A stretch of 64,000 nucleotides of DNA, taken from positions 62,001 through 126,000 of the forward strand of contig NTJZ01000003.1 in assembly GCA_002457215.1 (NCBI GenBank), in the 5' to 3' direction. Positions 39,087 through 52,990 of the stretch are shown in pieces. Each line of letters starts with the position of its first letter. Position 1 is the stretch's first letter. The translations under genes were made by a program, and so were the position numbers. The DNA is from OM182 bacterium MED-G28 (lineage in GTDB: Bacteria > Pseudomonadota > Gammaproteobacteria > Pseudomonadales > Pseudohongiellaceae). The notes beneath the pieces are model-generated. The model was not told the origin of the DNA and did no database searches. It saw only the letters and a list, made by a program, of their open reading frames with translations.

Positions 39087-39306
39087 TTTTCAGTAGTAAG
39101 ATGTAGCATCCAATGACTGGCTGTTCTATTGTTGAGTAAAGGTAAAAGGGGACTGTATTACAATTAAGCTATGCATTTTCAGTGAGTTATAAATTTCAAT
39201 TATTTGTTTTGAGATGTGTCCATAAATCACAAATGTCGAGAAAAAGTAGCTAAAATCACGAAAAATGGAGCGCAATTTAGAGTTGCTTCAAATTCAAGTT
39301 ATATCT

Positions 39307-40506
39307 ATGAAAAAGTTTTATATGATAATACCCAAGATAGTTTTGCTAAGCGGAATCAGCTTAAGCTTTCTGGCATGTCAAAGCTCGAGTCAGAGCTCAT
39401 CCTCTGCGAGTATGCCGTCGATGCCCTCTTCTTCGAGCCCGAGCTCACGAAGCTCACAATCGATGCCATCATCAAGTAGCTCTAGCTCTAGCTCACAATC
39501 ATCGCAGTCAATGCCATCTTCGAGCAGTAGCAGCCGCTCTCAAGCGAACCCATCGCCTTCCGGCAGCTCTTCCCAGCGCTCGCAGGGAGCCCAAAGCAGC
39601 TCTCAAGCGCAAGCCAATAGGGATAACCCGATGCCGCAGACTTCATCGAATTTTCCACAAACAAGTGGGCAAGGTTCGGCGAATAGTCAATCTAGGGGTC
39701 AAGGTGCGCGTGATAGCTCTGTGCCTTCAAGCGATTCTGCAAGTCAGGCTTCCGGTGGGGGGCAGCAATCAGCACAGCAAAGTCAACAGGGCCAAGATAG
39801 TCCGGCAGGACAGCAAGGCCGGAGAAGCGCTCCAATCTCTGGCTCTGGCAATGCCAGTGGCGACATTTCTGATCAGGGTGCAGGTGCTCAATCTGGATTT
39901 CCCCGCAAAGAGCAGCCTGGTGATAATAATGGCAATAGAGACATTTCTACTGGAGACCTAAATTCAGGTCAAGGTGGGAATTCTGGTTCAAACGGCGGGC
40001 TTTTAGGGAACCCTAGTGGGGATTATAGCTTAGATACGCTGCCAAATAATGTTTTAAGTGGAAATAGCTCCATGCGAACTCAGAACACTGGACCAATGAC
40101 CTCTGTTGAAAGAGCAAAAGTATTGGACGAAAGACTGCGTCGAGGCTATGAGACCTTTGATGGCTTCATTCTCAGTGAAAGAGAACAAGCCCAGAATGAA
40201 AGTAATGCTGCAGGCAGCGCGCAGCCGGGAGGAGAAGCCGGTGGCGGTAATACTTCTGCGCAACCACAAACTCTCCCTGAAGCTGGAGCCCCCTCGGGCG
40301 TTGCTGTATCGCGCCCTTCTTCCTCTCCACCGCCACCGACTGAAACTTTTCCACCACCGGAAGATATTCCCAGTGGGAGAGATGATGATGTGGTTGCTCG
40401 ACAGCTAAGAGAGGCGGCAATGAGTGAGCCTGACCTGGAATTGCGTGAGGCGCTTTGGGATGAGTACAGAAACTATACAGGTATTGGTGAAGGTGAAGAG
40501 CAATGA
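39307..40506 (+). CDS. Serine-rich low-complexity lipoprotein
   Basis: 399 residues from ATG 39307. A signal sequence ends at Cys24 (SFLAC), a plausible lipobox. Residues 25-110 are almost entirely Ser, Gln, Met and Pro, with a repeated SQSMPSSSSS unit; 110-240 are Gly/Ser/Gln/Asp-rich. The last 120 residues are ordinary, with a Pro-rich stretch and an acidic helix ending NYTGIGEGEEQ. It looks like a flexible, surface-exposed or spacer-type lipoprotein. No known family. Its stop overlaps the next start (ATGA), so the two are translationally coupled. Confidence 0.75.
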   Translation: MKKFYMIIPKIVLLSGISLSFLACQSSSQSSSSASMPSMPSSSSPSSRSSQSMPSSSSSSSSSQSSQSMPSSSSSSRSQANPSPSGSSSQRSQGAQSSSQAQANRDNPMPQTSSNFPQTSGQGSANSQSRGQGARDSSVPSSDSASQASGGGQQSAQQSQQGQDSPAGQQGRRSAPISGSGNASGDISDQGAGAQSGFPRKEQPGDNNGNRDISTGDLNSGQGGNSGSNGGLLGNPSGDYSLDTLPNNVLSGNSSMRTQNTGPMTSVERAKVLDERLRRGYETFDGFILSEREQAQNESNAAGSAQPGGEAGGGNTSAQPQTLPEAGAPSGVAVSRPSSSPPPPTETFPPPEDIPSGRDDDVVARQLREAAMSEPDLELREALWDEYRNYTGIGEGEEQ

Positions 40507-41687
40507 GATTCCTTGCTAAAAATGCAATTGGCTTGCTAGCGGTCGCTGTTTTTTTGAGCGCCTGTGCAACGCATACTGTCAAAACAACTTCTTACACACC
40601 GGTTGTTCGAGACAGCCAGGGCGTGCCTGAGGATTTGCTGTTGGATGTTGGTGTGGCAATGTTTGATCCGGGGCTGGATGAGTTGGATGGTGATCAGGAA
40701 GAACTTACCAATCATCAGGTAAGAGTCGCGGAATCACGTTATGCGCCTTATTTATTAGCAGAGACGCTGCAGCGCTCTGCAAATTGGGGCATTGTCCGCC
40801 TAATGCCTAATCACTCCAGTCCAATGGATGTTTACATTACGGGCACTATTTTGGAATCAAATGGCGAATCAATGAGAATGCGGGTGCACGTTGCAGACTC
40901 AACGGGCAAAGATTGGTACACCAAAGTTTATGATCAAGAAATTAGCCAGTTCAGTTACGACCCATCTCAGCGTCAGCAGAGCGACCCTTTTCAGATTTTG
41001 TACAACAATATAGCCAATGATTTGTTGGTCTGGAAAAAAAATAATATTACTGACGAAGAGGTAGTTGAGATCCGAACAATTTCTGAAATATTGTTTGCGC
41101 GACGTTTCTCGCCAGATGTATTTGACCCCTACTTAACAACCAGTCGTAATGGGATTTATCAGATTAACTCGTTGCCTGCGGATTCTGACCCAGTGCTGGA
41201 AAGAATTCGAGATATTCGTGAACGAGACTTTATGTTTATTGATACGATTCAAGATTATTACGCAACATATGTTCGGCAGATGCGCCTGCCTTACGATTCG
41301 TGGCGTGAGCAGAGTTATCACGAAACGATAACACTACGAGAATTAGAGGCATCTGCTAAGCGTCGATTTATTGCTGGTGCTGTCGCTGTTGTTGGTGGCT
41401 TGGCTGCCGCAACTCAAGGCAGTAACTATGCAACACAAGCTGGCGGGGCGTTTGGAGTCGGGGCTGGCGCTTATTTGATTAGAAGTGGATTCGATAAACG
41501 AGCTGAAGCAAGAATTCATATGGAAGCGCTTGAAGAACTCGGCCAGTCTCTTGAAAATGAAGTGGCACCTCAAGTTATAAACTTAGACGACCGTACAATT
41601 ACTCTCACTGGGTCAGTGGAAGAGCAGTATGAGCAATGGCGTGAAATCTTGGCAGATCTTTATGCGGCGGAAGTAGGACAACTGTAA
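40503..41687 (+). CDS. Lipoprotein of unknown function with a Gly/Ala-rich segment
   Basis: 394 residues. Lipobox FLSAC gives Cys21 as the acylated residue. The first 170 residues have a beta-rich pattern, and the region near 280-325 is Gly/Ala-rich (GAVAVVGGLAAATQGSN, GAFGVGAGAYLIRSGF), resembling glycine-zipper segments of envelope lipoproteins. A conserved family could not be assigned. Coupled to the serine-rich lipoprotein gene by a four-base overlap. Confidence 0.78.
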   Translation: MRFLAKNAIGLLAVAVFLSACATHTVKTTSYTPVVRDSQGVPEDLLLDVGVAMFDPGLDELDGDQEELTNHQVRVAESRYAPYLLAETLQRSANWGIVRLMPNHSSPMDVYITGTILESNGESMRMRVHVADSTGKDWYTKVYDQEISQFSYDPSQRQQSDPFQILYNNIANDLLVWKKNNITDEEVVEIRTISEILFARRFSPDVFDPYLTTSRNGIYQINSLPADSDPVLERIRDIRERDFMFIDTIQDYYATYVRQMRLPYDSWREQSYHETITLRELEASAKRRFIAGAVAVVGGLAAATQGSNYATQAGGAFGVGAGAYLIRSGFDKRAEARIHMEALEELGQSLENEVAPQVINLDDRTITLTGSVEEQYEQWREILADLYAAEVGQL

Positions 41688-41729: not shown

Positions 41730-43262
41730 ATGTCAGAGAAAGATGTCGAAAAGAACAAGCAAGAGTCGCAGCAATCTGGATTTACTGAGAACCAGATTTA
41801 TGTCAATTCCTCTGCAGCGTTAGAGTCTAAAAGTCCCCCTATTTGGATTTGGGTTAGTGTGGCAGGTTTACTGCTTGCTGCCCTGCTTGTTATTTTCGTA
41901 TTGCCAGCTCTCGTCACTGAATATGAATTACCCTTAGAGCTCAGAGTTGATGTCACAGAGTTTCAGCCATTGCCAGCAGAGACGGTGCCAACGATTTCTC
42001 CTTTCGAAGAAGCACAACTTTCGCGACAAAGGAAAGAAGCACAAGACGTCCTGGCAGAACTCTTGACCCAGCAAGAAGTTCTGGAGCTTATCGACGTAGA
42101 GCAATGGGCACAGGACGAATATACCGCCGCGTTGGAAGTTGCAAGTATTGGAGATGAATATTACCGAACTCAAGATTTTCAATTAGCAACTGAATCTTAT
42201 ACCCAAGGGCGAGACGATTTAGTTGAGATACAAGCTATGGTTCCCGTGGTGCTGAATCAAAACTTGGTAGATGCTCAGAGCGCCCTTGATGCGCAGGACT
42301 CGTTCGTGGCTCAAAACAAGTTTTTACTAGCGCTTCTCTTAGACCCCGACAGTGAGGTTGCGCAAATTGGCCTAGAAAGGGCACGCGTGCTAGACGAAGT
42401 ATCTGGACTATTAGCGGAGGCAGATAGCTTGTTAGAGGATAATGAGTTAGAGGCGGCGCAAGTTATTTATCGACAAATAGTCAGTTTAGATAGTTATAGT
42501 CAGGATGCTCAGCAGAGAATTTCTGAAGTTGCAGGTTTAATTTTACAGCGGGAGTTTTCTTTCATAATGTCATCAGGCTATGCCTTTTTGGAAAGTGATA
42601 ACCCGGATCAAGCCATTGCAGAATTTGAGCGAGCCGCGAGTTTGGGAATCAATCAAGAACAAGCACGTGCAGCAATAGCACAAACTGAGAATGAAATAGC
42701 GAATGTAGAAATTTCAGTAATCCAATTAAGAATCACAGAAGCTGAAAGCCAAGAGCAATGGCATACGGCAGTGGCTGAGTATGACAATGCTTTGGTAATA
42801 GATGCAAACCTCGTGTTTGCAATTAATGGCCGTGATTATGCCAGTAAGCGGGCGCAACTCGATGATCTGTTGGTTAGTGCTATCGAAACTCCTGATAGAT
42901 TCTATGAGCAAGATGTTTTCCAACAAACCTTAGACGTTTACTACACAGGGAGAGCAATCGAAAATCCTGGTGCTCGAATATCCGAACAACTCCAGAAGTT
43001 GCAGCTACTATTAGAGACTTCGCAGGTGCCTCTTGATATACAAATGGTTTCTGACAACCTGACAGATGTGACTATTTTGAGAATCGGAAATCTAGGATTG
43101 TTTGAACAAACCGTTGTATCTTTAAAGCCGGGCAGATACGTTGCTGTAGGAAAACGTATAGGCTATAGGGAAGTTCGCGAAGAATTTGTAGTTGGATTTA
43201 ATCAAACGCCAGATTCAGTTCTTGTTCAATGTGTTGAACGTGTAGTTGCTACAAATAGGTGA
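41730..43262 (+). CDS. Single-pass membrane protein with TPR-like repeats and PEGA-like end
   Basis: 510 residues. A cytoplasmic, hydrophilic N-terminus of about 37 residues is followed by one membrane helix (IWIWVSVAGLLLAALLVIFVL, about residues 38-60). The remaining 450 residues are probably periplasmic and helical with TPR features (for example IGDEYYRTQDFQLATESYTQ, ALDAQDSFVAQNKFLLALLLDPD). The C-terminal 60 residues form a beta-rich PEGA-like module (ending GKRIGYREVREEFVV). Function unknown; likely a scaffold for partner binding. Next gene follows at once. Confidence 0.75.
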   Translation: MSEKDVEKNKQESQQSGFTENQIYVNSSAALESKSPPIWIWVSVAGLLLAALLVIFVLPALVTEYELPLELRVDVTEFQPLPAETVPTISPFEEAQLSRQRKEAQDVLAELLTQQEVLELIDVEQWAQDEYTAALEVASIGDEYYRTQDFQLATESYTQGRDDLVEIQAMVPVVLNQNLVDAQSALDAQDSFVAQNKFLLALLLDPDSEVAQIGLERARVLDEVSGLLAEADSLLEDNELEAAQVIYRQIVSLDSYSQDAQQRISEVAGLILQREFSFIMSSGYAFLESDNPDQAIAEFERAASLGINQEQARAAIAQTENEIANVEISVIQLRITEAESQEQWHTAVAEYDNALVIDANLVFAINGRDYASKRAQLDDLLVSAIETPDRFYEQDVFQQTLDVYYTGRAIENPGARISEQLQKLQLLLETSQVPLDIQMVSDNLTDVTILRIGNLGLFEQTVVSLKPGRYVAVGKRIGYREVREEFVVGFNQTPDSVLVQCVERVVATNR

Positions 43263-43269
43263 TGCGAAA

Positions 43270-45339
43270 GTGGACGATATCGAAATTAATGAGAATAGTG
43301 GGCCAACCAGCCCGATAATTCCGATTGACTTTACGCCTCATGATGAAAAAGGGCCGCGAGTCACATTTAAACCTAAGCCAGTACACTTTGTCGTTGGTGT
43401 ATTTTTTTTGTTATCAGGCATTGCGGGCTGGTTTGTTCTAACTGCGAGATCTGTATTTGTGGAAGTTAATCCAATTACTGCGCAAATAGAAATTAGTGGC
43501 GGGTTGAGAGTTCGTTTAGGGCAAAGGTACCTTATCAGGACTGGGTCTTACGAAATAAAACTCACCAACGAAGGCTATCATGAAACAAATACTCAACTCT
43601 TAGTTACTAATGAGCAGTCACAAACTGTTCCCTTTGAAATGCGAAGACTTCCGGGTATTGTTTCAATTGCGACTATGGAATTAAATGGTGCCCGAGTACA
43701 AATTGATGGCGTAGATATTGGGGTTACTCCTTTAGTCGACATTCCTATTGAGCCTGGTCAGCATCAGATGACCATTTCTATGGACCGATATCTTGATTAT
43801 GGCGAAACCATTGATATCGAAGGAAGAGAAGTCGAGCAACGTTATCAGTCCAGTCTGGAACCGGCCTGGGCAGTGGTTAGTTTATCAACGACCCCGCCTG
43901 GGGCAGATGTCTTTCTAGATGGTGTTGTGATTGGGACTACCCCAGTTAATTCCGAGATTATTCAGGGTCGTCGAGACCTTACTTTCAAGCTAGCAGGCCA
44001 CAAAGCCTGGCAGGAAGATTTTGATGTCATCGCCGGCGAAGACTTCACGGTACCTCAGGTTGAACTAGAGCCGGCGGATGGATTGGTATTTATCCGCAGC
44101 AACCCCTCTGCAGCCGCTGTAACCATCGGTGGAGAATACAAGGGCCTCACTCCGTTGGAGGTAGCCTTGCCTCCTGGCCAAAATCATGACCTGACATTTT
44201 TGAAGAATGGTTATCGATCCGTTAGAACCTCAATTCGTACCGAACCAAACCAAGAAAGAGAACTAAGCATTGATCTAGATCCAGAGTTGACCAATGTTAG
44301 TGTGATTGCCCATCCCGAAGATGCAGAGCTTTACGTTAACGGCGAATTTAGAGGCTTGGCCAATCAAACTATTGCGTTAATGGCAGCGAGTCAAAAGATC
44401 GAAATTCGTAAAGAAGGCTTCGTACCTTACGCTAGCGAGTTTATCTCTAGGCCAGGTTTAGACCAGGCGATTAGGGTTACTTTGAAATCTTTAGAGCAGG
44501 CCCGACTGGACCAAATTCAACCGGTGATTACTACTGCAACGGGGCAACAACTAAAGCTTTTTTATCCTGGCGCATTTACCATGGGAGCTTCGCGCCGAGA
44601 AGCTGGGCGTCGCCCCAATGAGAATTTGCGTGATATAGAGCTAGAGCGTCCTTTTTATATTAGTTTCCGTGAAGTAAGAAATACGGAGTATCGTCAGTTT
44701 GATCCAGAGCATTCGTCCGGCACTGTCTCAGGTGTTACTTTGAATAATGAAGAACAACCAGTTGTGCAAATCAGTTGGTCCCAGGCAGCCCGTTATTGTA
44801 ATTGGCTTAGTGAACAGGAAAGCCTGCCGCTCTTTTATGAAATAGAAGGAGAAGATGTAGTTGGATTTAACTCCAACACAACCGGCTATAGGTTGCCTAC
44901 TGAAGCAGAATGGGCATGGACTGCTCGAACTGATGGCAGTGGTAATCAACTAAAATATTCTTGGGGTGATGAGCTTCCGCCTCCAGAAAATGCTGGTAAC
45001 TTTGCTGATATTACAGCCCAAAACTATTTAGGCGAAATCATGTTTAACTACAATGACAATTATTTTGCCTCAGCGCCAGTTGGATCATTCACTCCAAATC
45101 AGTACGCAATTTTTGATATGGCAGGAAACGTATCGGAGTGGGTGCATGACTTTTATGGTGCAGTTGGTTCGATAGGTATTGAAATTGATCCTCTTGGGCC
45201 AGAGTTGGGACAGTTTCATACTATTCGTGGTTCCAGCTGGGCGCACGGTGCGGTTACGGAAATGCGTTTGTCTTTTCGAGATTTTGGGGAAGAGCCGCGC
45301 GATGATGTAGGTTTCCGAGTAGCGCGCTATTTGGAGTGA
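43270..45339 (+). CDS. Membrane-anchored PEGA-repeat protein with SUMF/FGE-sulfatase-type domain
   Basis: About 689 residues from GTG 43270, preceded by AGGTGA; an in-frame TTG at 43246 overlaps the previous gene and has no ribosome-binding site. One membrane helix (about 38-60) precedes four or five PEGA-like repeats to about residue 405 (for example GADVFLDGVVIGTTPV, AELYVNGEFRGLANQ). From about 430 to the end is a SUMF-type domain: FYISFREVRNTEY, QISWSQAARYCNWL, GYRLPTEAEWAW, FDMAGNVSEWVHD, TIRGSSWAHG. The catalytic Cys pair of true formylglycine-generating enzymes is absent, so I infer a structural or ligand-binding role in the periplasm. Confidence 0.8.
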   Translation: MDDIEINENSGPTSPIIPIDFTPHDEKGPRVTFKPKPVHFVVGVFFLLSGIAGWFVLTARSVFVEVNPITAQIEISGGLRVRLGQRYLIRTGSYEIKLTNEGYHETNTQLLVTNEQSQTVPFEMRRLPGIVSIATMELNGARVQIDGVDIGVTPLVDIPIEPGQHQMTISMDRYLDYGETIDIEGREVEQRYQSSLEPAWAVVSLSTTPPGADVFLDGVVIGTTPVNSEIIQGRRDLTFKLAGHKAWQEDFDVIAGEDFTVPQVELEPADGLVFIRSNPSAAAVTIGGEYKGLTPLEVALPPGQNHDLTFLKNGYRSVRTSIRTEPNQERELSIDLDPELTNVSVIAHPEDAELYVNGEFRGLANQTIALMAASQKIEIRKEGFVPYASEFISRPGLDQAIRVTLKSLEQARLDQIQPVITTATGQQLKLFYPGAFTMGASRREAGRRPNENLRDIELERPFYISFREVRNTEYRQFDPEHSSGTVSGVTLNNEEQPVVQISWSQAARYCNWLSEQESLPLFYEIEGEDVVGFNSNTTGYRLPTEAEWAWTARTDGSGNQLKYSWGDELPPPENAGNFADITAQNYLGEIMFNYNDNYFASAPVGSFTPNQYAIFDMAGNVSEWVHDFYGAVGSIGIEIDPLGPELGQFHTIRGSSWAHGAVTEMRLSFRDFGEEPRDDVGFRVARYLE

Positions 45340-45342
45340 CCT

Positions 45343-45651
45343 ATGAGCCCACTAGCTAAAGAGAGCTATTACGTGAAAAAAACAATTCTGCTATTTGCTG
45401 GACTGCTTTCCTTAAGTGCCGCGGCTCAGGACAGTCAATCGGCTGATACAGAACAGGAAGCTCAAACTGAACAGCAGGTTATTGATCCAGAATTAACCCT
45501 CGAAGAATTGAACGTCGCTGAAAATGATGAATTGATCCTGGGGGCAGACGAAGGAGGCGAGGAAAGCGAAGAAGAAAACTCAAACTCTCGTTTCATCCCA
45601 ACTGAGCAAATATCCCAGGACTTGGGTGTTTCATTTCCGGTTGATATCTAA
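45343..45651 (+). CDS. Small secreted acidic protein
   Basis: 102 residues (92 if GTG 45373 is used). A signal peptide ends around SLSAAAQD; the mature part is strongly acidic and low in complexity. GGAG stands 6 bases before ATG 45343. No family recognised. It lies 3 bases after the PEGA/SUMF gene, so it belongs to the same transcript and may be an accessory factor. Confidence 0.65.
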   Translation: MSPLAKESYYVKKTILLFAGLLSLSAAAQDSQSADTEQEAQTEQQVIDPELTLEELNVAENDELILGADEGGEESEEENSNSRFIPTEQISQDLGVSFPVDI

Positions 45652-45684: not shown

Positions 45685-46497
45685 ATGAAGCAAGGCTCAT
45701 TGTATGAAGCGCTCTTCCAAATCGGTACTTTGATTTTCGTGATTATCATTGTGCATGCCACCTATGTGACGGTGATCAGGCCCAATGCAGAGCTAATTCA
45801 AGAACAGCAACAATTAATGCAGGAACAAAATCCAGACATAGTACCGGAGCGTTCCGTATTCATAATTATTCGTGATTATGAACAAGAGTTTTGCATAATT
45901 TTCTTTCTTTGGGCCGTTACTATCATCGGCATGAAGACTCAACACACCTTGCGACAACGAGCTCTACTTGAAAGGACGCTGGTGAAACTGCAAGATGGCA
46001 TGAGTATCTTGCCAGAGGATTCTCGCAACTACGCCAGACCAGTTCAGGCGCTTGCGCCCAAAGAAAAGGAATTTCTGCTGCCGCGTGCTTTGTTGGCAGG
46101 GTTACATCGATTTCAAAGTACACAAAACATTCACGCTGTTTCCTCAATCATTAAGGATACATGTGAAACTGAAGCAGACCGAATGGAAACTGAACTTTCT
46201 ATTGTCCGCTATATTGCTTGGGCAATTCCTTCAATCGGATTCTTGGGCACTGTTCGAGGTATTGGCACTGCTTTGGGGCAGGCTTATCAGGCCGTTGCAG
46301 GGGATATTGCGGGAGTAACCCAAAGCTTAGGAGTTGCCTTTAATTCCACATTCGTAGCTCTTGTCGTAAGTATTTTCCTAATGTTTCTTCTGCATCAATT
46401 GCAATTGCAACAGGATAGATTGGTGCTCGACTGTCAAAACTATTGTGATGAACGATTGATTCGCCATATGCAAGTTCCAGAAAAGGCGAATAGCTAA
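45685..46497 (+). CDS. MotA/TolQ/ExbB-family proton channel protein
   Basis: 270 residues. Membrane segments lie at about 10-31, 69-84, 173-195 and 215-237. The hallmark region runs AIPSIGFLGTVRGIGTALGQA, then GVTQSLGVAFNSTFVALVVS; the G-x-x-GTV and the Thr/Ser of the final helix are the typical channel residues of ExbB, TolQ and MotA. Such proteins use the proton gradient to power a partner. No exbD, tolR or motB follows; instead two VWA proteins have ExbD/MotB-like helices. AAAAGGAAAAG precedes the ATG. Confidence 0.88.
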   Translation: MKQGSLYEALFQIGTLIFVIIIVHATYVTVIRPNAELIQEQQQLMQEQNPDIVPERSVFIIIRDYEQEFCIIFFLWAVTIIGMKTQHTLRQRALLERTLVKLQDGMSILPEDSRNYARPVQALAPKEKEFLLPRALLAGLHRFQSTQNIHAVSSIIKDTCETEADRMETELSIVRYIAWAIPSIGFLGTVRGIGTALGQAYQAVAGDIAGVTQSLGVAFNSTFVALVVSIFLMFLLHQLQLQQDRLVLDCQNYCDERLIRHMQVPEKANS

Positions 46498-46515
46498 AAT
46501 GGTTGCAAGCAATAC

Positions 46516-47874
46516 ATGTCATTAAAAGTAATAGAGCTAAATGACCGCGAGATTAGGGTCGGTGATGAGAGTGGCATCATCTTAGAGAGCCCCGGATTTG
46601 CATTGGCAGCAGATGACAAGCTCGAGGTGGGGGAATCTGCGGAACGACAAGCACGATTGCGACCAACCAACAGCTTTAGCAAGTATTGGCGCGACCTGAG
46701 CCTGGAGCCCATTTCCCACAGCAAAAAAGTTAGACACTATGCTGATCTGGCATATGCTCAATTAATGCACCTGGCCGATGTCGGCGAGATTGATGCAGAT
46801 GTTATTTTTGCAGTGCCAGGTAACTTTACTCGACCACAGTTAGCCATTCTACTAGGCCTTGCACAGCAGTGTCCTTTTACGCCGATCGGTGTTGTTGATT
46901 CTGCGTTAGCAGCGGCATTGGTATCCTCCAAAAGAGAACAAATTGTCTATGCTGATATCCAATTGCATCAGGTAGTAATTTCGAAACTGAAACTTGTTGA
47001 TGAGCATCTTAGTACCGATGGTGTTATTCAGATTCCTGGAGTTGGCAGTCAGAACTTTATGAATTTAATGATGCAAATTGCAACGGACATGTTTATTCAG
47101 CAGTGTCGTTTTAACCCTCAACATAACGCTGCATCTGAGCAACAGCTCTATAATGAGCTACCTTCGTGGTTATTGCAGGACGAGAAAGAGAAAACACTCT
47201 TACTGGAGCTTAAAAGTGAAAGCGCTATACATACTGCTAAACTTCCAAGAGAAAGCTTAATAAGGAATCTCAATGAATATTATAAAAAGATCAATGAACA
47301 GATTAATTCATTAGCTGATAGCAGCAATGTTGACATCTTACTCAGTCAGGCCATCGCAGACCTTCCTGGCTTTTTAGCGTCTACCGATACTACGGGAAAT
47401 GTCGTTGTAGTTAAAAATCATTTAGTTAATGAAGCTTGTCATCAGAACCAAGCTCATATCGTTACTGCGGAGGGAGGCATTCACCTCGTTAGCAGACTGC
47501 CGTTAGCAAAATTAGCTCAAATTAAACTAACGAAGCAAAAAGAAAAAATAAATAGCGATAGAGGCGATAACCCAACTCATGCACTTTATTCTAATCGCGC
47601 TATTGCAATTGATAAGCTTGAAATTAAGAACAAGCCAGTACCGAATGGAAAGTCGATGGACACAAATACGCTAGTCATGGACATAGAAAATTTACCGGAG
47701 TCTCTAGGTCGAATTGAGCTGCGCGAGGAGGGTGTTTACCTCAATAGTGGGGTGCAAAAAGTATTTTTGAACGATAATCCAGTAACAGGTGAACAATTAC
47801 TGAAGCTGGGCGACTGTATCCAATTTGAAAGCAATGGTGACGAAATAAATCTGATTCAGGTTAACGATGGCTAG
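46516..47874 (+). CDS. Degenerate Hsp70/actin-fold protein with FHA-like C-terminus
   Basis: 452 residues, cytoplasmic, with no signal or membrane segment. VIFAVPGNFTRPQ (residues 97-109) and GVVDSALAAALVSS resemble the Hsp70-family core, but the usual D-x-G of phosphate loop 2 is replaced by ADIQLHQ, so nucleotide hydrolysis may be lost. A region near 390-452 (GRIELREEGVYLNSG, FLNDNPVTGEQLLKLGD) has the FHA-type beta pattern, a possible phosphothreonine or assembly module. The product probably docks on the inner face of the proton-channel complex. Its stop overlaps the next start by 8 bases. Confidence 0.7.
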   Translation: MSLKVIELNDREIRVGDESGIILESPGFALAADDKLEVGESAERQARLRPTNSFSKYWRDLSLEPISHSKKVRHYADLAYAQLMHLADVGEIDADVIFAVPGNFTRPQLAILLGLAQQCPFTPIGVVDSALAAALVSSKREQIVYADIQLHQVVISKLKLVDEHLSTDGVIQIPGVGSQNFMNLMMQIATDMFIQQCRFNPQHNAASEQQLYNELPSWLLQDEKEKTLLLELKSESAIHTAKLPRESLIRNLNEYYKKINEQINSLADSSNVDILLSQAIADLPGFLASTDTTGNVVVVKNHLVNEACHQNQAHIVTAEGGIHLVSRLPLAKLAQIKLTKQKEKINSDRGDNPTHALYSNRAIAIDKLEIKNKPVPNGKSMDTNTLVMDIENLPESLGRIELREEGVYLNSGVQKVFLNDNPVTGEQLLKLGDCIQFESNGDEINLIQVNDG

Positions 47875-48970
47875 CAACAGTAAATCAAATAGACGCAAAG
47901 TTAATCCATTAAGCTTAGCCTTTCTTGACGTCATGTTTTGTGGCTTTGGTGCTGTGATTCTTATTTTTCTAATCTTGGATCATGCTAGCTCCGTCTCTCC
48001 AGAAGCAACCAGCCCAGATCTGACTGCAGAAATAAATTTGTTGGAAGAAGAAATTCTGGAAGGTCAGCTTGGTTTGGTTCGGGTTCGCAATATTCTTTCT
48101 GATGTCGATTTTGAGGTAGTCGCGGCGGAAGGTCTTGCTCGCCAGATCATGGAGCAAATAGACACGTTCTTACAGGAACTCGCTGCACTTGAAAACAATA
48201 GTATGGCCAGCGTCGAAGACGTGGCGCAACTTCGTTCAGATATAGAGACTCTGGAAAATGAATTATTGCGATTGCAGGCAAGCGCCTTCGAACAGGAAGG
48301 CAATAGTGTTCGTCAATTTCTAGGGGATGGGAATCGTCAGTATCTCTCTGGCTTATTTCTCGGAGGCCAGAGAATTCTTGTGCTCATAGACAGCTCGGCC
48401 AGTATGCTGGATAGCACGATCGTAAATATCATTCGCACACGCAATATGGATGACGAGCGCAAGCGTAATTCGCCAAAATGGCAACGTGTTGTCAATACTG
48501 TGGACTGGGTGAGTACCCAGTTACCCATCACCAGCCAATATCAAATGTGGAATTTCAACACTGAATACGAAGCCGCGCTGCCTGGTACAGAAGATAGGTG
48601 GTTAGAGGTTGCGGATCGAGACCAACTTAATCAGGTAATTGATAACGTAAAAGGTATAGTGCCGAACAATGGCACAAATATGGCCCAGGTATTTCGAGCA
48701 GTAGCCAATATGTCCCCTAGGCCAGATAATATTTTTCTAATTACCGACGGCTTACCTACCCTCGATGATCGGGGCGCCAGAGGTTCTCTGATAACCCCCG
48801 CAGATCGGGCGGAATTATTTGAGGAAGCAGTTGAAGAATTACCTCAGTCGATTCCGGTCAATGTAATATTGATGCCCTTGGAAGGGGATCCAAGTGCTGC
48901 GGCTATTTATTGGCAGTTGGCGCAATATACGAAAGGCTCTTTTTTGACGCCTTCAAAAGATTGGCCTTAG
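47867..48970 (+). CDS. Membrane-anchored VWA-domain protein 1 (ExbD/MotB-like helix)
   Basis: 367 residues. A single N-terminal helix begins SLAFLDVMFCGFGAVILIFL; Asp21 sits at its entrance, as Asp25 of ExbD and Asp32 of MotB do. A Glu/Leu-rich coiled coil covers about 50-140. The VWA domain from about 168 has a full MIDAS: D175-S-S177-A-S179, Thr270 (GTN) and Asp294 (ITDG). It is therefore likely to bind a divalent metal and a protein ligand in the periplasm. It overlaps the previous gene by eight bases. I infer it partners with the proton channel at 45685. Confidence 0.85.
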   Translation: MASNSKSNRRKVNPLSLAFLDVMFCGFGAVILIFLILDHASSVSPEATSPDLTAEINLLEEEILEGQLGLVRVRNILSDVDFEVVAAEGLARQIMEQIDTFLQELAALENNSMASVEDVAQLRSDIETLENELLRLQASAFEQEGNSVRQFLGDGNRQYLSGLFLGGQRILVLIDSSASMLDSTIVNIIRTRNMDDERKRNSPKWQRVVNTVDWVSTQLPITSQYQMWNFNTEYEAALPGTEDRWLEVADRDQLNQVIDNVKGIVPNNGTNMAQVFRAVANMSPRPDNIFLITDGLPTLDDRGARGSLITPADRAELFEEAVEELPQSIPVNVILMPLEGDPSAAAIYWQLAQYTKGSFLTPSKDWP

Positions 48971-49050
48971 GTGGAAGGGCGATAAGCGCCGGCAGCAATG
49001 GGCTGAATAATGTTTGTAAATTGACTCAACGATTGCGTTAAAAAATAAAT

Positions 49051-50061
49051 ATGGCAAATCGCAAGAACAGAGAAACCGACTCCTTTACAGTCTCATTCTT
49101 AGATGTCGCATCCTGTGGGTTTGGAGCGATGATTATTCTTTTAATGATCACCAAGTCTTCGGCACCAACAACCTTGGAGTCTGTAGAAAATATTATGCCA
49201 GCGGGCGTGGTTGCTGAACTGCAGGAGCAACTGTTTGATATTAGAGGAGAAACTACGATCTTAAACCGTGAGCTCAATGCCAAGCATGAGCAACTCTCTG
49301 CAATGGAGGATCGGATAGCCAGGTTGCGCCGTGACTTGAACGACATTGAGGGTCAATTCACTACAACTAAAGAGTTGTCTGATGAAACCACTGATGAATT
49401 TGGCCGCCTGGTTCTGGCCCAACAATCTCTCACTCAAGAAATGCAACGTTTGCTCGCTAACACGCGAGCCCCCGAGAACAATGCTATCGGCGGTGTTCCC
49501 GTCGACAGCGAGTACATAATTTTTGTAATCGATACCTCTGGCAGCATGTTTCAAAACCCAAGTTGGGACAAAATGCTTGGTGTCATTAGAGATACCTTGG
49601 ATGTATATCCTGAAGTAAAAGGAATCCAGGTAATGAATGACATGGGTGACTACATGTTCGAATCTTACCGCGGAGACTGGATCCCAGATACCCCAGGTAG
49701 GCGCAGTCAGATTATTCAGACTTTAAGGTCTTGGAACCCTTACAGCAACAGCAGCCCTGTAGAAGGTGTGACACGGGCCATAGACACGTTTTATGAATAT
49801 GATAAAAACATAAGTATTTATGTGCTCGGAGATGATTTTCAGCCGGGCGGATCGATCCAAAATGTTCTTCAAACCATTGATCGCATTAATGTTGAAGATG
49901 AGAATGGTGATCGCTTGGTAAGAATTCATGGGATAGGCTTTCCTGTCATTTTCGCGGGCCCTAGACGATTTCAGCAAAGTGTTTACCGATATTCCACTCT
50001 AATGCGGGAGATGACGCAGCGAAATGGTGGTACATTTGTAGGGTTGAACGATTATCAGTGA
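49051..50061 (+). CDS. Membrane-anchored VWA-domain protein 2 (ExbD/MotB-like helix)
   Basis: 336 residues. Like its neighbour, it has an N-terminal helix starting VSFLDVASCGFGAMIIL with Asp18, a coiled coil (about 52-135) and a VWA domain with DTSGS at 161-165. The two helices share FLDVxxCGFGAxI, suggesting an ancient duplication or a shared binding site on the channel subunit. The third MIDAS Thr is not obvious (NSSPVEG), so metal binding could differ. Starts 80 bases after gene 1 ends. Confidence 0.85.
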   Translation: MANRKNRETDSFTVSFLDVASCGFGAMIILLMITKSSAPTTLESVENIMPAGVVAELQEQLFDIRGETTILNRELNAKHEQLSAMEDRIARLRRDLNDIEGQFTTTKELSDETTDEFGRLVLAQQSLTQEMQRLLANTRAPENNAIGGVPVDSEYIIFVIDTSGSMFQNPSWDKMLGVIRDTLDVYPEVKGIQVMNDMGDYMFESYRGDWIPDTPGRRSQIIQTLRSWNPYSNSSPVEGVTRAIDTFYEYDKNISIYVLGDDFQPGGSIQNVLQTIDRINVEDENGDRLVRIHGIGFPVIFAGPRRFQQSVYRYSTLMREMTQRNGGTFVGLNDYQ

Positions 50062-50108
50062 TTTGGCGTATTAGAATTATACGGTATAAGAATTTCAAGG
50101 AAATGGCG

Positions 50109-50735
50109 ATGAATCAGCCGAACATGACAATACAAGCGCTCCCATACAGGTTTGGCGCTGCGTTACTACTCCTGCTAGTTTCCGCTTGTGGCGCTAGCAA
50201 TGTTGTCATAGAAGGCAACTTCCCCACTCCGAACGTAAACAAAATGCCTTTGTCCGTAGCGGTTATTTATGAAGACGCTCTGCGGGAATTCGCATATATG
50301 GAGTACAGCGAAACTGGGCGCGAAGAAATAAATATAGAGAGCGGTCAATCTCATATTCGATTGTTCGACGCTGTGCTTCCCGCGATGTTTGATCGGGTCG
50401 TTAACGTGGATACTATGGAAGACGCCGTCGAACAAAAAGTTGACGCAGTGTTTGCTCCCGTAATTGAGGAATTTCAACTAGCACTGCCAGCAAAGACCAA
50501 GCTTGATGTGTATGAAGTCTGGATAAAATACAATATGCGCTTGGTTACGACCGAAGGTGACTATATTGCGGATTGGGTCTTAACATCTTATGGGAAGACA
50601 CCGACGGCAACTTTTCGCTCAGTACAGGACGGGATTAATGGAGCTACCGTTGTGGCATTACGAGACCTTGCTTCTAGTTTCTCATTGAGCTTTTCTCAAG
50701 TCCCGGAAGTGAGTGAATGGCTAAGAAACCTCTAG
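50109..50735 (+). CDS. Lipoprotein of unknown function
   Basis: 208 residues from ATG 50109 with AAGGAA at a good distance (upstream ATG 50103 is too close to it). The lipobox LVSAC makes Cys27 the acylated residue. The mature protein has an alternating alpha/beta pattern with DAVFAPVIEEFQLALPAKT, reminiscent of small outer-membrane assembly lipoproteins, but no family is recognised. It overlaps nothing; the next start lies inside its 3' end region. Confidence 0.75.
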   Translation: MNQPNMTIQALPYRFGAALLLLLVSACGASNVVIEGNFPTPNVNKMPLSVAVIYEDALREFAYMEYSETGREEINIESGQSHIRLFDAVLPAMFDRVVNVDTMEDAVEQKVDAVFAPVIEEFQLALPAKTKLDVYEVWIKYNMRLVTTEGDYIADWVLTSYGKTPTATFRSVQDGINGATVVALRDLASSFSLSFSQVPEVSEWLRNL

Positions 50736-50761
50736 ACCGGGGTACTCGAGAGGACATCAAT

Positions 50762-51436
50762 ATGAGCACTATAAAAAAAGCGCAAACTGCAAATGTCGGT
50801 GCCGCATTTTTCATTGCGAGTCTACTTGCTACATGCACTAGCACTACAGTTGATGAATTTCGCCAAGGCGAAACCGGAATTGAAACTGACGAATCTATTG
50901 TAATCTTAGGGCGTAGGCAGGCTAGCGACTACGAAACTGATTCAGGATTCGTTGAGTGTGTTGGTGATCGCATGCAGCGCGGCGAGAATGCGATAAGCGT
51001 AGTTCCTGAGCAGGAATTTATCGATTCGATGTTTCCTTGGTTCGAACCTCGTACGGCACCACTAAGAACACGCGATTTAGAGCAGCTCATGGCTGAAGAT
51101 GTAGTCGCAAACAAAATGAATGACTATGGAATTCGTTACATTGTATGGGTTGATGGTGTTACAGAAACCTCCGGCCGCACCGGTTCAATTTCTTGCACTG
51201 TTGGTCCGGCTGGTGGCGGATGCTTTGGATTTGGCACGTGGGAAGACGATGCTAATTTCAATGCGCGCGTATGGGATGTCGGTTCTCTGAAAAACGTTGG
51301 AACAATAAATGCTGATGCTACTGGGCAATCCTATCTGCCGGCACTTGTAATACCAATTCCATTGTTAGCCCGGGTTGAGGCAAATGCGTGTAGCCGTTTA
51401 GCAATTCAACTCAAAGATTTTGTAAATGGTAGTTAG
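50762..51436 (+). CDS. Cys-containing lipoprotein of unknown function
   Basis: 224 residues from ATG 50762, preceded by GAGGA; an in-frame ATG at 50717 would overlap the previous gene. The hydrophobic stretch ends LLATC, a loose lipobox (Cys25). Mature part contains several Cys (VECVGD, ISCTVGPAGGGCFGFG) and a segment YGIRYIVWVDGVTE. Function unknown; a secreted or lipid-anchored envelope protein, read with its neighbours. Confidence 0.72.
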   Translation: MSTIKKAQTANVGAAFFIASLLATCTSTTVDEFRQGETGIETDESIVILGRRQASDYETDSGFVECVGDRMQRGENAISVVPEQEFIDSMFPWFEPRTAPLRTRDLEQLMAEDVVANKMNDYGIRYIVWVDGVTETSGRTGSISCTVGPAGGGCFGFGTWEDDANFNARVWDVGSLKNVGTINADATGQSYLPALVIPIPLLARVEANACSRLAIQLKDFVNGS

Positions 51437-51511
51437 ATATGCAAACTGCATTAAAGAAAGATAATTGGCACTATCAAAAATATTGAGTCTTTCTGATATT
51501 TGGATTTACTG

Positions 51512-52990
51512 ATGACCAAAATACACCATAGCTTTCCCGTCGCGCTAATCGTATCGGTATTATTATTACCTTTTCTTGCTGGCTGTGCTGTCAATCCAGC
51601 TACTGGTGGAGCCAACTTAGTATTGATGACAGAAAATCGAGAAAAGGAAATAGGCCTGGAAGAACATGAAAAAGTAATGAGCTCCATGTCGCTTTTTGAT
51701 GATGAAGAACTCGTTGCCTATGTAAAAGAAATTGGTAATAAGATGGCCAGGGTTAGTCATCGCCCCGATCTTGAATATCATTTCCATGTGATAGATAGCC
51801 CGGAAATTAATGCGTTCGCATTACCTGGAGGTTATGTTTATGTGAATCGCGGCTTGTTAACTTACATGAACTCAGAGGCCGACCTAGCAGCAGTACTTGC
51901 CCATGAAATCGCCCATATTACTGCGCGGCATGCAGTTCAGCAGCAGGCTAGAGGCGCGCTCGCTCGCGGAGCCGCAGTCGCAGGCGGACTGGTCGCCGGT
52001 ATAGCAACCGGTAGCGGCTATGCGGCTTCACAAATCAGCGAGGTCGCCTCTATCTGGGCACAAACGGGGCTTAGCGGTTTTGGCCGGGAGCAAGAATTAG
52101 AGGCTGATAGTTTAGCAGCGGAATATTTAGTGAATGCAGGATACGATCCTGCAGCAATGATTGAAGTTATCACTGTTCTCAAAAATCAGGAAGACTTCAA
52201 CCGCCGTGTTACTGGTGGTGGCGGAAGTTACCACGGCTTGTTTGCGACGCACCCACGGAATGATCGACGTCTTCAGGAGGCTATTTCTGAAGTTGGCCAG
52301 TTAGAAGAAACTGGCGTAGCAAAAACCGACAATGATACTTTTAGAGAAGAGCTCGATGGGCTTATCGTTGGACAGAGCAATGCCTCCCAACGAACCGATC
52401 AGCGCAATCGCTATTATCAGGATTTATTAGGCTACACACTGGTGCTCCCCGATGGCTGGAATGTTGCAGAGACTACTACAACTGTGACTGCTAGCGGAGG
52501 CAATGTTGGCAGCTTGAAAATTGAAGCCCAACGCTTGCAGGAAAATATCGAACCACGTGTTTTTATTAGAGACAACATGGGTATTGAAAATTTGCAAGAA
52601 TCTGAGGTTCTCTCTCAATTTCGATTGCTAGGTCATACTGGTGTGGCAGTAAACCCGGATACTGAAAAAATGGAGCGAGTGGCGACTATTTACTTAGGGC
52701 CCCGAGCGTTTACATTTCGCGGAGAAATTGGTGAAGGTGCCGAGTCTGAGGCAACCGACGAAATGCTTTTGGCCGCAATTAGGTCTTTCCGATCAATACA
52801 GCAAGGAGAAGTTGTCGCTGGTAGTGAGTTGAAAATCAAGTACGTGCAGGCAAGCGAGTTTTTTGATTTTTCCGTAGTAGCTCAATCTAGCAAAATCCCT
52901 AATTTTCCCGAAGAAACACTTCGTCTTCTTAATGGCTATTATCCGACAGGGTCTCCAGAGGAAGGTACATGGATTAAGCTAGTTGATTAG
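51512..52990 (+). CDS. M48-family metalloprotease lipoprotein
   Basis: 492 residues from ATG 51512; TTG 51500 is upstream. Lipobox FLAGC (Cys25). The M48 zinc motif HEIAH lies at residues 131-135, with the third ligand Glu in QELEADSLAAEYL. The C-terminal 230 residues form an extra domain not seen in BepA or LoiP, with beta-rich VLPDGWNVAETTTTVTA and ending IKLVD. Comparable lipoproteins degrade misassembled outer-membrane proteins. Last gene of the cluster; a terminator was not recognised after it. Confidence 0.88.
   Translation: MTKIHHSFPVALIVSVLLLPFLAGCAVNPATGGANLVLMTENREKEIGLEEHEKVMSSMSLFDDEELVAYVKEIGNKMARVSHRPDLEYHFHVIDSPEINAFALPGGYVYVNRGLLTYMNSEADLAAVLAHEIAHITARHAVQQQARGALARGAAVAGGLVAGIATGSGYAASQISEVASIWAQTGLSGFGREQELEADSLAAEYLVNAGYDPAAMIEVITVLKNQEDFNRRVTGGGGSYHGLFATHPRNDRRLQEAISEVGQLEETGVAKTDNDTFREELDGLIVGQSNASQRTDQRNRYYQDLLGYTLVLPDGWNVAETTTTVTASGGNVGSLKIEAQRLQENIEPRVFIRDNMGIENLQESEVLSQFRLLGHTGVAVNPDTEKMERVATIYLGPRAFTFRGEIGEGAESEATDEMLLAAIRSFRSIQQGEVVAGSELKIKYVQASEFFDFSVVAQSSKIPNFPEETLRLLNGYYPTGSPEEGTWIKLVD

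Follow-up and report, generated by a model that had tools for sequence, protein, structure and literature searches.

A 64,000-nucleotide stretch of the 2.95-Mb draft genome of OM182 bacterium MED-G28 (contig NTJZ01000003.1, positions 62,001 to 126,000; contig C19 in our numbering), hereafter the window, carries a gene for a MotA/TolQ/ExbB-type channel protein and, downstream of it, two genes, VWA1 and VWA2, whose products each join an N-terminal helix bearing an Asp to a coiled coil and a VWA domain. A preliminary description of this DNA had proposed that the two VWA proteins act as partners of the channel in place of ExbD or MotB. The channel and VWA genes belong to a conserved gene set that begins at 39265 (Table 1), in which the genes upstream of the channel share its strand and are closely spaced, and an Hsp70-like gene, absent from the preliminary description, separates the channel from VWA1.

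The Channel Protein

The channel matches Pfam MotA_ExbB (PF01618) with an E-value of 9.2e-17 and 61.4 bits against a cut-off of 22.9, which bears out the family given to it in the preliminary description. Its hydropathy profile has four peaks, and a profile search with it against the PDB gave no match at E<=0.01. Thr189 and Thr222 align with Thr145 and Thr178 of Escherichia coli TolQ, and both positions are Thr in every one of 96 channel sequences. In TolQR, according to PMC12215075, Asp23 of TolR lies close to the pore threonines of TolQ. Elsewhere in the channel, residues 64-70 form a conserved D-x-E-x-E-x-C motif ahead of the second hydropathy peak, with Cys70 kept in 95/96 sequences (the other has a gap) and Asp64 in 90/96.

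The N-terminal Helices of VWA1 and VWA2

Both VWA proteins begin with a helix of the form FLDVxxCGFGAxI. The N-terminus of VWA1 is FLDVMFCGFGAVI, with Asp21 inside a hydropathy helix at residues 19-37, and that of VWA2 is FLDVASCGFGAMI, with Asp18 inside a helix at residues 16-34. The Asp is found in 98/98 VWA1 and 95/95 VWA2 relatives, counted with a search pattern that left its position free and that dropped two open reading frames (ORFs) lacking the pattern, a truncated one at locus L100 and one at L075 with an ambiguous letter beside the Asp. Given this invariance across relatives, the helix motif with its Asp is more than chance. Each protein has a single N-terminal helix with an invariant Asp in its first part, as in ExbD/TolR or MotB. 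Within the most hydrophobic 19-mer, the Asp occupies position 3 in 97 of 98 VWA1 and 77 of 95 VWA2 sequences; among 30 ExbD/TolR proteins it is at position 8 (19 proteins), 3 (eight), 6 (two) or 2 (one). The preceding 20 residues have a mean net charge of 3.7 in VWA1, 1.8 in VWA2 and -0.1 in ExbD/TolR, and the positive charge in the VWA proteins fits a cytoplasmic N-terminus. The ExbD/TolR family PF02472 did not match VWA1 or VWA2 at E<=1.

Coiled Coils and VWA Domains

The order of coiled coil and then VWA domain that had been described for both proteins was recovered from several sources. VWA1 matches Pfam VWA_2 (E 4.9e-6), barely above threshold with 27.6 against a cut-off of 27.0. The VWA2 of the window falls under the Pfam VWA cut-off (E 0.14), and VWA_2 was matched at E<=0.1 by 38 of the 57 members of the VWA2 alignment. 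An AlphaFold2 model of VWA2 has a mean predicted local distance difference test score (pLDDT) of 69, with a helix at residues 51-135 for the coiled coil and ten-residue blocks of 74-92 over the VWA domain, the last block being 56. In a comparison of the model with the PDB, 103 chains of any type passed E<=0.001, and many of the best were VWA domains, including inter-alpha-inhibitor (4.5e-7) and BatB (1.2e-6); the first-ranked match is chain I of an entry that, going by its title alone, is a B19V capsid. Profile searches of the PDB with VWA1 and VWA2 returned coiled-coil chains and no VWA domain.

Residues of the type found at a metal-ion-dependent adhesion site (MIDAS), under the pattern that we take to define such sites, are highly conserved. 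For VWA1 these are D175 (97/98), S177, S179 and D294 (each 98/98) and T270 (90/98), and for VWA2 they are D161, S163, S165, S232, S234 and D261 (all 96/96). The MIDAS Thr position of VWA2 seems to be Ser, an uncertain assignment. In the VWA1 of locus L046, Ala replaces the first MIDAS Asp.

Conservation and Co-occurrence

Two sets of loci were compared. The first holds the best 80 of at least 570 stretches with a VWA1 relative that a scan of named genomes returned, with titles naming Proteobacteria, Gammaproteobacteria or taxa within them; as the closest relatives, these 80 are biased to one group, and many are short, so that missing flanking genes often reflect truncation. The closest VWA1 relative among the matches listed is from a gammaproteobacterial metagenome-assembled genome (98% identity), followed by uncultured Pseudohongiella records at 79-81%. 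One of the 80 comes from a metagenome-assembled genome labelled Klebsiella pneumoniae. The second set, drawn from 274 genomes of the class including the window's own, comprises 19 more diverse loci; VWA1 relatives are present in 20 of the 274 genomes, again counting the window's own. In viral contigs, no relative of VWA1 or of the channel was found.

Of the 99 loci, 96 have both VWA1 and VWA2; the other three (L042, L050 and L066) end there, at a contig end. The preliminary description had counted it as evidence against its proposal if VWA genes were never near the channel gene in orthologous loci; the opposite was found, with 95 of the 99 loci having the channel and VWA1 together, always on the same strand. 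Of the four that do not, L077, L100 and L132 are truncated by the end of a contig, whereas the genome of L046 (G213) does have the channel, on a different contig. In L045 the channel comes after VWA2 and not ahead of VWA1. Among the 274 genomes, which are related and so do not amount to 274 independent trials, a channel orthologue (>340 bits) is present in exactly the 20 that carry VWA1, the next match scoring 106 bits. The search profile was built from 18 channels of VWA1-bearing loci, which brings some circularity to this result, but channels outside the profile still scored 415.7 bits (G087) and 363 bits (G213).

ExbD/TolR and MotB Genes in Carrier Genomes

As had been stated, no exbD, tolR or motB lies beside the channel. 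The four PF02472 matches of the window's own genome are on contigs C1 and C4, none of them near the operon on C19, and MotB_plug had no match in this genome at E<=0.001. The 20 carrier genomes have 81 ExbD/TolR matches, and for 78 of these another MotA/TolQ/ExbB match is no more than 1.5 kb away. Of the three unpaired matches, one belongs to G153, one to G183, where it is at the end of a contig, and one to the window's own genome, which leaves 17 of the 20 carriers with no spare ExbD/TolR gene. At loci L040 and L041 (genomes G256 and G143) an ExbD/TolR gene is on the same contig about 11 kb from the channel, beside a channel gene of its own.

Sibling Channel Lineages

Nine weaker channel matches split into two groups beyond that of the window (group I), namely II (L185-L189) and III (L190-L193). 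In group II an FHA gene lies beside the channel in L185-L188, with PP2C in L185, L187 and L188 and a trypsin-FHA gene in L185, L187 and L189. Both L185 and L187 also encode one VWA protein with a related helix, SALDLFASALGAFIL or SALDLFASAMGAFIL (ALDLFASA); the three remaining stretches are short. In group III, L191 and L193 each encode a short protein with Glu at the start of its helix (VEIFGG), a longer protein with an Asp helix (ADILANxVAVILIL) and an FGE protein, and in L190 there is no acid at the equivalent place in the short protein. A tree of 67 rows places groups I, II and III on one side of a branch (support 100/98), apart from 34 TolQ/ExbB-like and six MotA rows; its deep order is unsure because long branches were flagged.

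Other Members of the Gene Set

The remaining genes of the set are listed in Table 1, in which lipobox and signal sequences were judged by eye. Besides the counts given there, VWA1 was found in all 80 named loci, VWA2 in 79 and the channel in 77. In the class set, every locus that reaches far enough has the PEGA-FGE gene (15/15) and the TPR gene (12/12). The Hsp70-like gene is present in 10 of the 19 class loci (it is absent from L043, L052 and L053, for example), the two lipoproteins downstream of VWA2 in five and four, and an M48 match in four. We are less sure that the M48 peptidase gene, a frequent last neighbour, is a member of the set. A scan for promoters and terminators gave 14 promoter-like sites (shuffle mean 22.9) and 18 terminator-like sites (shuffle mean 13.2), to which we give no weight.

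Table 1. Features of the window's gene set (window coordinates), with the group III gene sets in the last row (locus coordinates). Counts out of 80 refer to the named loci.
Feature	Position	Strand	Basis and occurrence
Ser-rich putative lipoprotein	39265..40506	+	ORF; FLAC lipobox-like, by eye; homologue in 63/80, many loci cut
Putative lipoprotein	40503..41687	+	ORF; Cys21 invariant in 12/12 aligned; homologue in 63/80
Single-span membrane protein with sub-threshold TPR matches	41730..43262	+	ORF, Pfam, hydropathy; 67/80
Membrane-anchored protein with PEGA repeats and an FGE/SUMF1-fold domain, without C-terminal Cys	43246..45339	+	Pfam; 71/80
Small putative secreted protein	45343..45651	+	ORF; signal-like N-terminus, by eye; 56/80
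MotA/TolQ/ExbB-type channel, 270 aa, four hydropathy peaks	45685..46497	+	Pfam, profile search, alignment, tree
Channel Thr189 codon	46249..46251	+	Aligned with E. coli TolQ Thr145; Thr in 96/96
Channel Thr222 codon	46348..46350	+	Aligned with E. coli TolQ Thr178; Thr in 96/96
Hsp70-like (actin-fold) protein, 452 aa, C-terminus weakly FHA-like	46516..47874	+	Model, profile; 77/80
VWA1, 367 aa: N-terminal Asp helix, coiled coil, VWA domain	47867..48970	+	ORF, Pfam, alignment
VWA1 predicted transmembrane helix, residues 19-37, contains Asp21	47921..47977	+	Hydropathy; Asp in 98/98
VWA1 MIDAS-like DSSAS, residues 175-179	48389..48403	+	Alignment
VWA2, 336 aa: N-terminal Asp helix, coiled coil, VWA domain	49051..50061	+	ORF, alignment, AlphaFold2 model
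VWA2 predicted transmembrane helix, residues 16-34, contains Asp18	49096..49152	+	Hydropathy; Asp in 95/95
VWA2 MIDAS-like DTSGS, residues 161-165	49531..49545	+	Alignment; D, S, S in 96/96
Putative lipoprotein without Pfam match	50058..50735	+	ORF, Pfam; 77/80
Putative lipoprotein without NCBIfam match	50717..51436	+	ORF, NCBIfam; 76/80
Peptidase M48, putative lipoprotein	51500..52990	+	Pfam M48 1.7e-39; 75/80
Group III gene sets: FGE-fold protein with a pair of single-helix proteins, one bearing Asp and the other Glu	L191:3247-7901, L193:6503-11547		

The second of the upstream lipoproteins had no Pfam match over the cut-off and no PDB profile match at E<=1. The PEGA-FGE protein matches Pfam PEGA (6e-47, in five stretches) and FGE (1.4e-39). 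A catalytic formylglycine-generating enzyme (FGE) has a pair of Cys residues near its C-terminus. From residue 658 onwards, 84 of 84 sequences of the PEGA-FGE protein (two with gaps in this region) are free of Cys, which speaks against a formylglycine-generating enzyme; because of this lack, its FGE-fold domain is probably a non-catalytic module with a binding or structural role, as in PorK. The model of the Hsp70-like protein (pLDDT 91.1) matches the DnaK nucleotide domain 6w6e_I (E 9.6e-16, TMt 0.73), and its sequence profile matches Hsp70 (E 1.5e-4). By eye, it has D-x-Q-L-H-Q where the phosphate-site glycine motif is expected, and, measured against what we take to be the glycine-rich phosphate motifs of Hsp70, its phosphate-binding glycines look degenerate and lost. 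Its C-terminus is weakly FHA-like (Rad53 FHA at E 0.14; two of 55 relatives match FHA at E<=0.1).

Discussion

The gene content, the co-occurrence, the invariant residues and the VWA and Hsp70 folds described above are shown by the analysis. What would such a set of genes build? Our preferred reading, to which we assign a probability of roughly 0.7, is that the channel forms a TolQ/MotA-like ring in which VWA1 and VWA2 replace the ExbD/TolR/MotB pair as an in-pore axle that drives the VWA domains. Because the helix Asp and the pore threonines are invariant, because the 20 genomes with the channel, out of 274, are also the 20 with VWA1, and because 17 of these 20 have no spare ExbD, the VWA proteins are most likely the in-pore partners of the channel, as had been proposed in the preliminary description. 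The gene set as a whole would then probably be a proton-driven machine with which many gammaproteobacteria exert a pull on some part of the cell envelope.

The central idea of this pairing is already in print as a prediction. In an article of June 2025 (Mol Biol Evol; PMC12204202, Fig. 4c,d), which starts from an Idiomarina query, paired "TPH-vWA" proteins are predicted inside a TolQ-like pentamer. As described there, the vWA genes, mostly heterologous pairs from Proteobacteria, lie beside a tolQ-like gene without tolR/exbD, and AlphaFold3 models place a conserved Asp of the "transpore helix" in a ring of Thr. The window shares with those motors the heterologous Asp-helix VWA pair beside a tolQ-like gene and the lack of tolR/exbD, a likeness drawn from the published description. 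A word search of the main text of that article found no mention of PEGA, formylglycine, sulfatase or Hsp70, and we did not find the wider operon in the literature covered, which was thin for subscription journals and bioRxiv and took in neither figures nor supplements. To this we add the counts, the lack of a spare ExbD in most carriers, the further operon members and the sibling lineages.

How might such a motor work? Its assembly, stoichiometry, proton coupling and load are matters that we infer. The channel would form a TolQ/MotA-like ring in the inner membrane, with the N-terminal helices of VWA1 and VWA2 in the pore and Asp21 and Asp18 adjoining a threonine ring made up of Thr189 and Thr222. 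As protons flow, the two helices would rotate or tilt, the coiled coils would pass this motion on to the two periplasmic VWA domains, and the MIDAS sites of these domains would grip a partner, the likeliest load being the PEGA-FGE protein, the TPR protein or the lipoproteins of the operon. One VWA1 and one VWA2 per ring, and thus a 5:1:1 complex, would be expected because both VWA genes are present wherever the sequence allows. As to the cellular role, our guesses are upkeep of the envelope or the moving of a surface structure.

Several observations weigh against this reading. The N-terminal helix of VWA2 is poorly modelled by AlphaFold2 (pLDDT 32-50), so that the model is silent on pore insertion, and the VWA1-VWA2 heterodimer is suggested by co-presence only. 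The window's own genome has an ExbD gene (L184:6104-6523; G000:C4:70116-70493) with no channel gene within 1.5 kb. Finally, a hidden Markov model comparison of the VWA N-termini with ExbD and MotB, proposed in the preliminary description as a check, gave no significant match, and we give it no weight as support. This comparison used 38 N-terminal residues around the Asp, with 30 rows for ExbD and five and then nine rows for MotB, the nine-row set having been anchored by a pattern in 9 of 20 MotB proteins, some perhaps wrongly. Against ExbD, where the Asp fell out of register, the probabilities for VWA1 and VWA2 were 2.5 and 1.7%; against MotB, where Asp lay on Asp each time, they were 20 and 2.3% with five rows and 2.7 and 0.4% with nine; an unrelated helix from a TPR protein reached 3.2% against VWA1. 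In shuffled controls for ExbD the observed score was reached in 3 and 4 of 100 over the helix columns and in 5 and 10 of 100 over all columns, and for MotB in 6 and 30 of 100 over the helix columns. A helix of about 20 residues carries too little profile signal for such a comparison, because even the positive control, ExbD against MotB, reached only 23%.

A variant of our preferred reading would give the single channel gene two homodimeric motors, each with five channel subunits and either two VWA1 or two VWA2. Motors of 5:2 composition usually have an axle made of a single type of subunit, and VWA1 and VWA2 each have an Asp helix and a coiled coil of their own. A dimeric axle is also described in PMC9389320. 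However, the joint presence of VWA1 and VWA2 in 96 of 99 loci would be unexpected for a dispensable second axle, and the gliding motors of Myxococcus are said, in PMC4488436, to hold two different TolR-like proteins. Neither point is decisive, and we give the variant something like one chance in four, the most of any alternative.

Less probable still is a regulatory or sensing ion channel, in which the VWA domains would sense a ligand in the envelope and gate the channel, with the Hsp70-like protein as the cytoplasmic readout. The Hsp70-like gene does adjoin the channel in 77 of the 80 named loci, and the channel of sibling lineage II is surrounded by FHA, PP2C and trypsin-FHA genes; yet just 10 of the 19 class loci have the Hsp70-like gene, and the studied members of the MotA/TolQ/ExbB superfamily known to us perform mechanical work. 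Least probable is that the channel uses an ordinary ExbD encoded elsewhere while the VWA proteins bind the exterior of the ring as TolA/TonB-like transducers, for although the unpaired ExbD of the window's own genome would suit this and PMC12204202 describes another vWA family, with a SHLS motif, that has tolR-like genes alongside, most carriers have no spare ExbD/TolR, an invariant Asp has no evident need in a side-binding helix, and no SHLS motif was seen by eye in the aligned VWA1 and VWA2 rows.

If the VWA proteins are indeed the axle, how does this motor relate to known ones? With TolQ-TolR and ExbB-ExbD it shares the channel family, the pore threonines and an Asp early in a single N-terminal helix, but its VWA proteins have a coiled coil and a VWA domain instead of an ExbD/TolR domain, and its channel, with four hydropathy peaks, lies outside the TolQ/ExbB group of the tree. 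MotA has four membrane spans, which the four peaks of the window's channel resemble, and the Asp helix recalls MotB, whereas VWA replaces the peptidoglycan-binding domain and the channel stands apart from the six MotA rows. GldK-GldL-GldM and PorKLM, of the type IX secretion system (T9SS) and gliding of Bacteroidota, likewise combine an FGE-fold (SME-fold) protein with a proton-channel motor; PMC12635249 gives PorK the SME-fold and names the PorLM motor as the energy source of the PorKN ring. The window's FGE protein differs in being membrane-anchored with PEGA repeats, and we rejected its identity with T9SS GldK (NCBIfam GldK 102.5 bits against a cut-off of 350). AglR-AglQ-AglS of Myxococcus gliding likewise has one MotA/TolQ/ExbB-type and two different MotB/TolR/ExbD-type proteins, and the gliding machinery includes the VWA proteins CglB and CglD, which, according to PMC4488436, differ from those of the window in being lipoproteins separate from the axle proteins. 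The channel also has a weak match to ZorA (E 6e-5) of Zorya ZorA-ZorB; an identity with Zorya was rejected, there being no ZorB match among the five proteins scanned.

More tentatively, the channel may represent a separate branch of proton motors, a class beside the flagellar stators and Tol/Ton, with at least three lineages: 1. that of the window, with FGE/PEGA, an Hsp70-like protein and a paired VWA axle, 2. one with FHA, PP2C and trypsin-FHA proteins and a VWA axle, and 3. one with two single-helix proteins, the longer with Asp, and an FGE protein. Under this proposal, which we hold to be doubtful as a whole, the two-protein axle would be obligate in the first lineage, the FGE-fold protein would be the load as in T9SS, and the FHA proteins would provide phospho-control.

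That FGE-fold proteins recur beside such motors, in T9SS as well as here, suggests a shared route of force to the outer envelope. If our reading holds, a very different periplasmic tool, namely a pair of VWA domains with metal sites, can be powered by proton rings, and many gammaproteobacteria carry a VWA motor without any known job. Such a motor is directly testable through its Asp and Thr residues and its gene set, and because most carriers have no spare ExbD.

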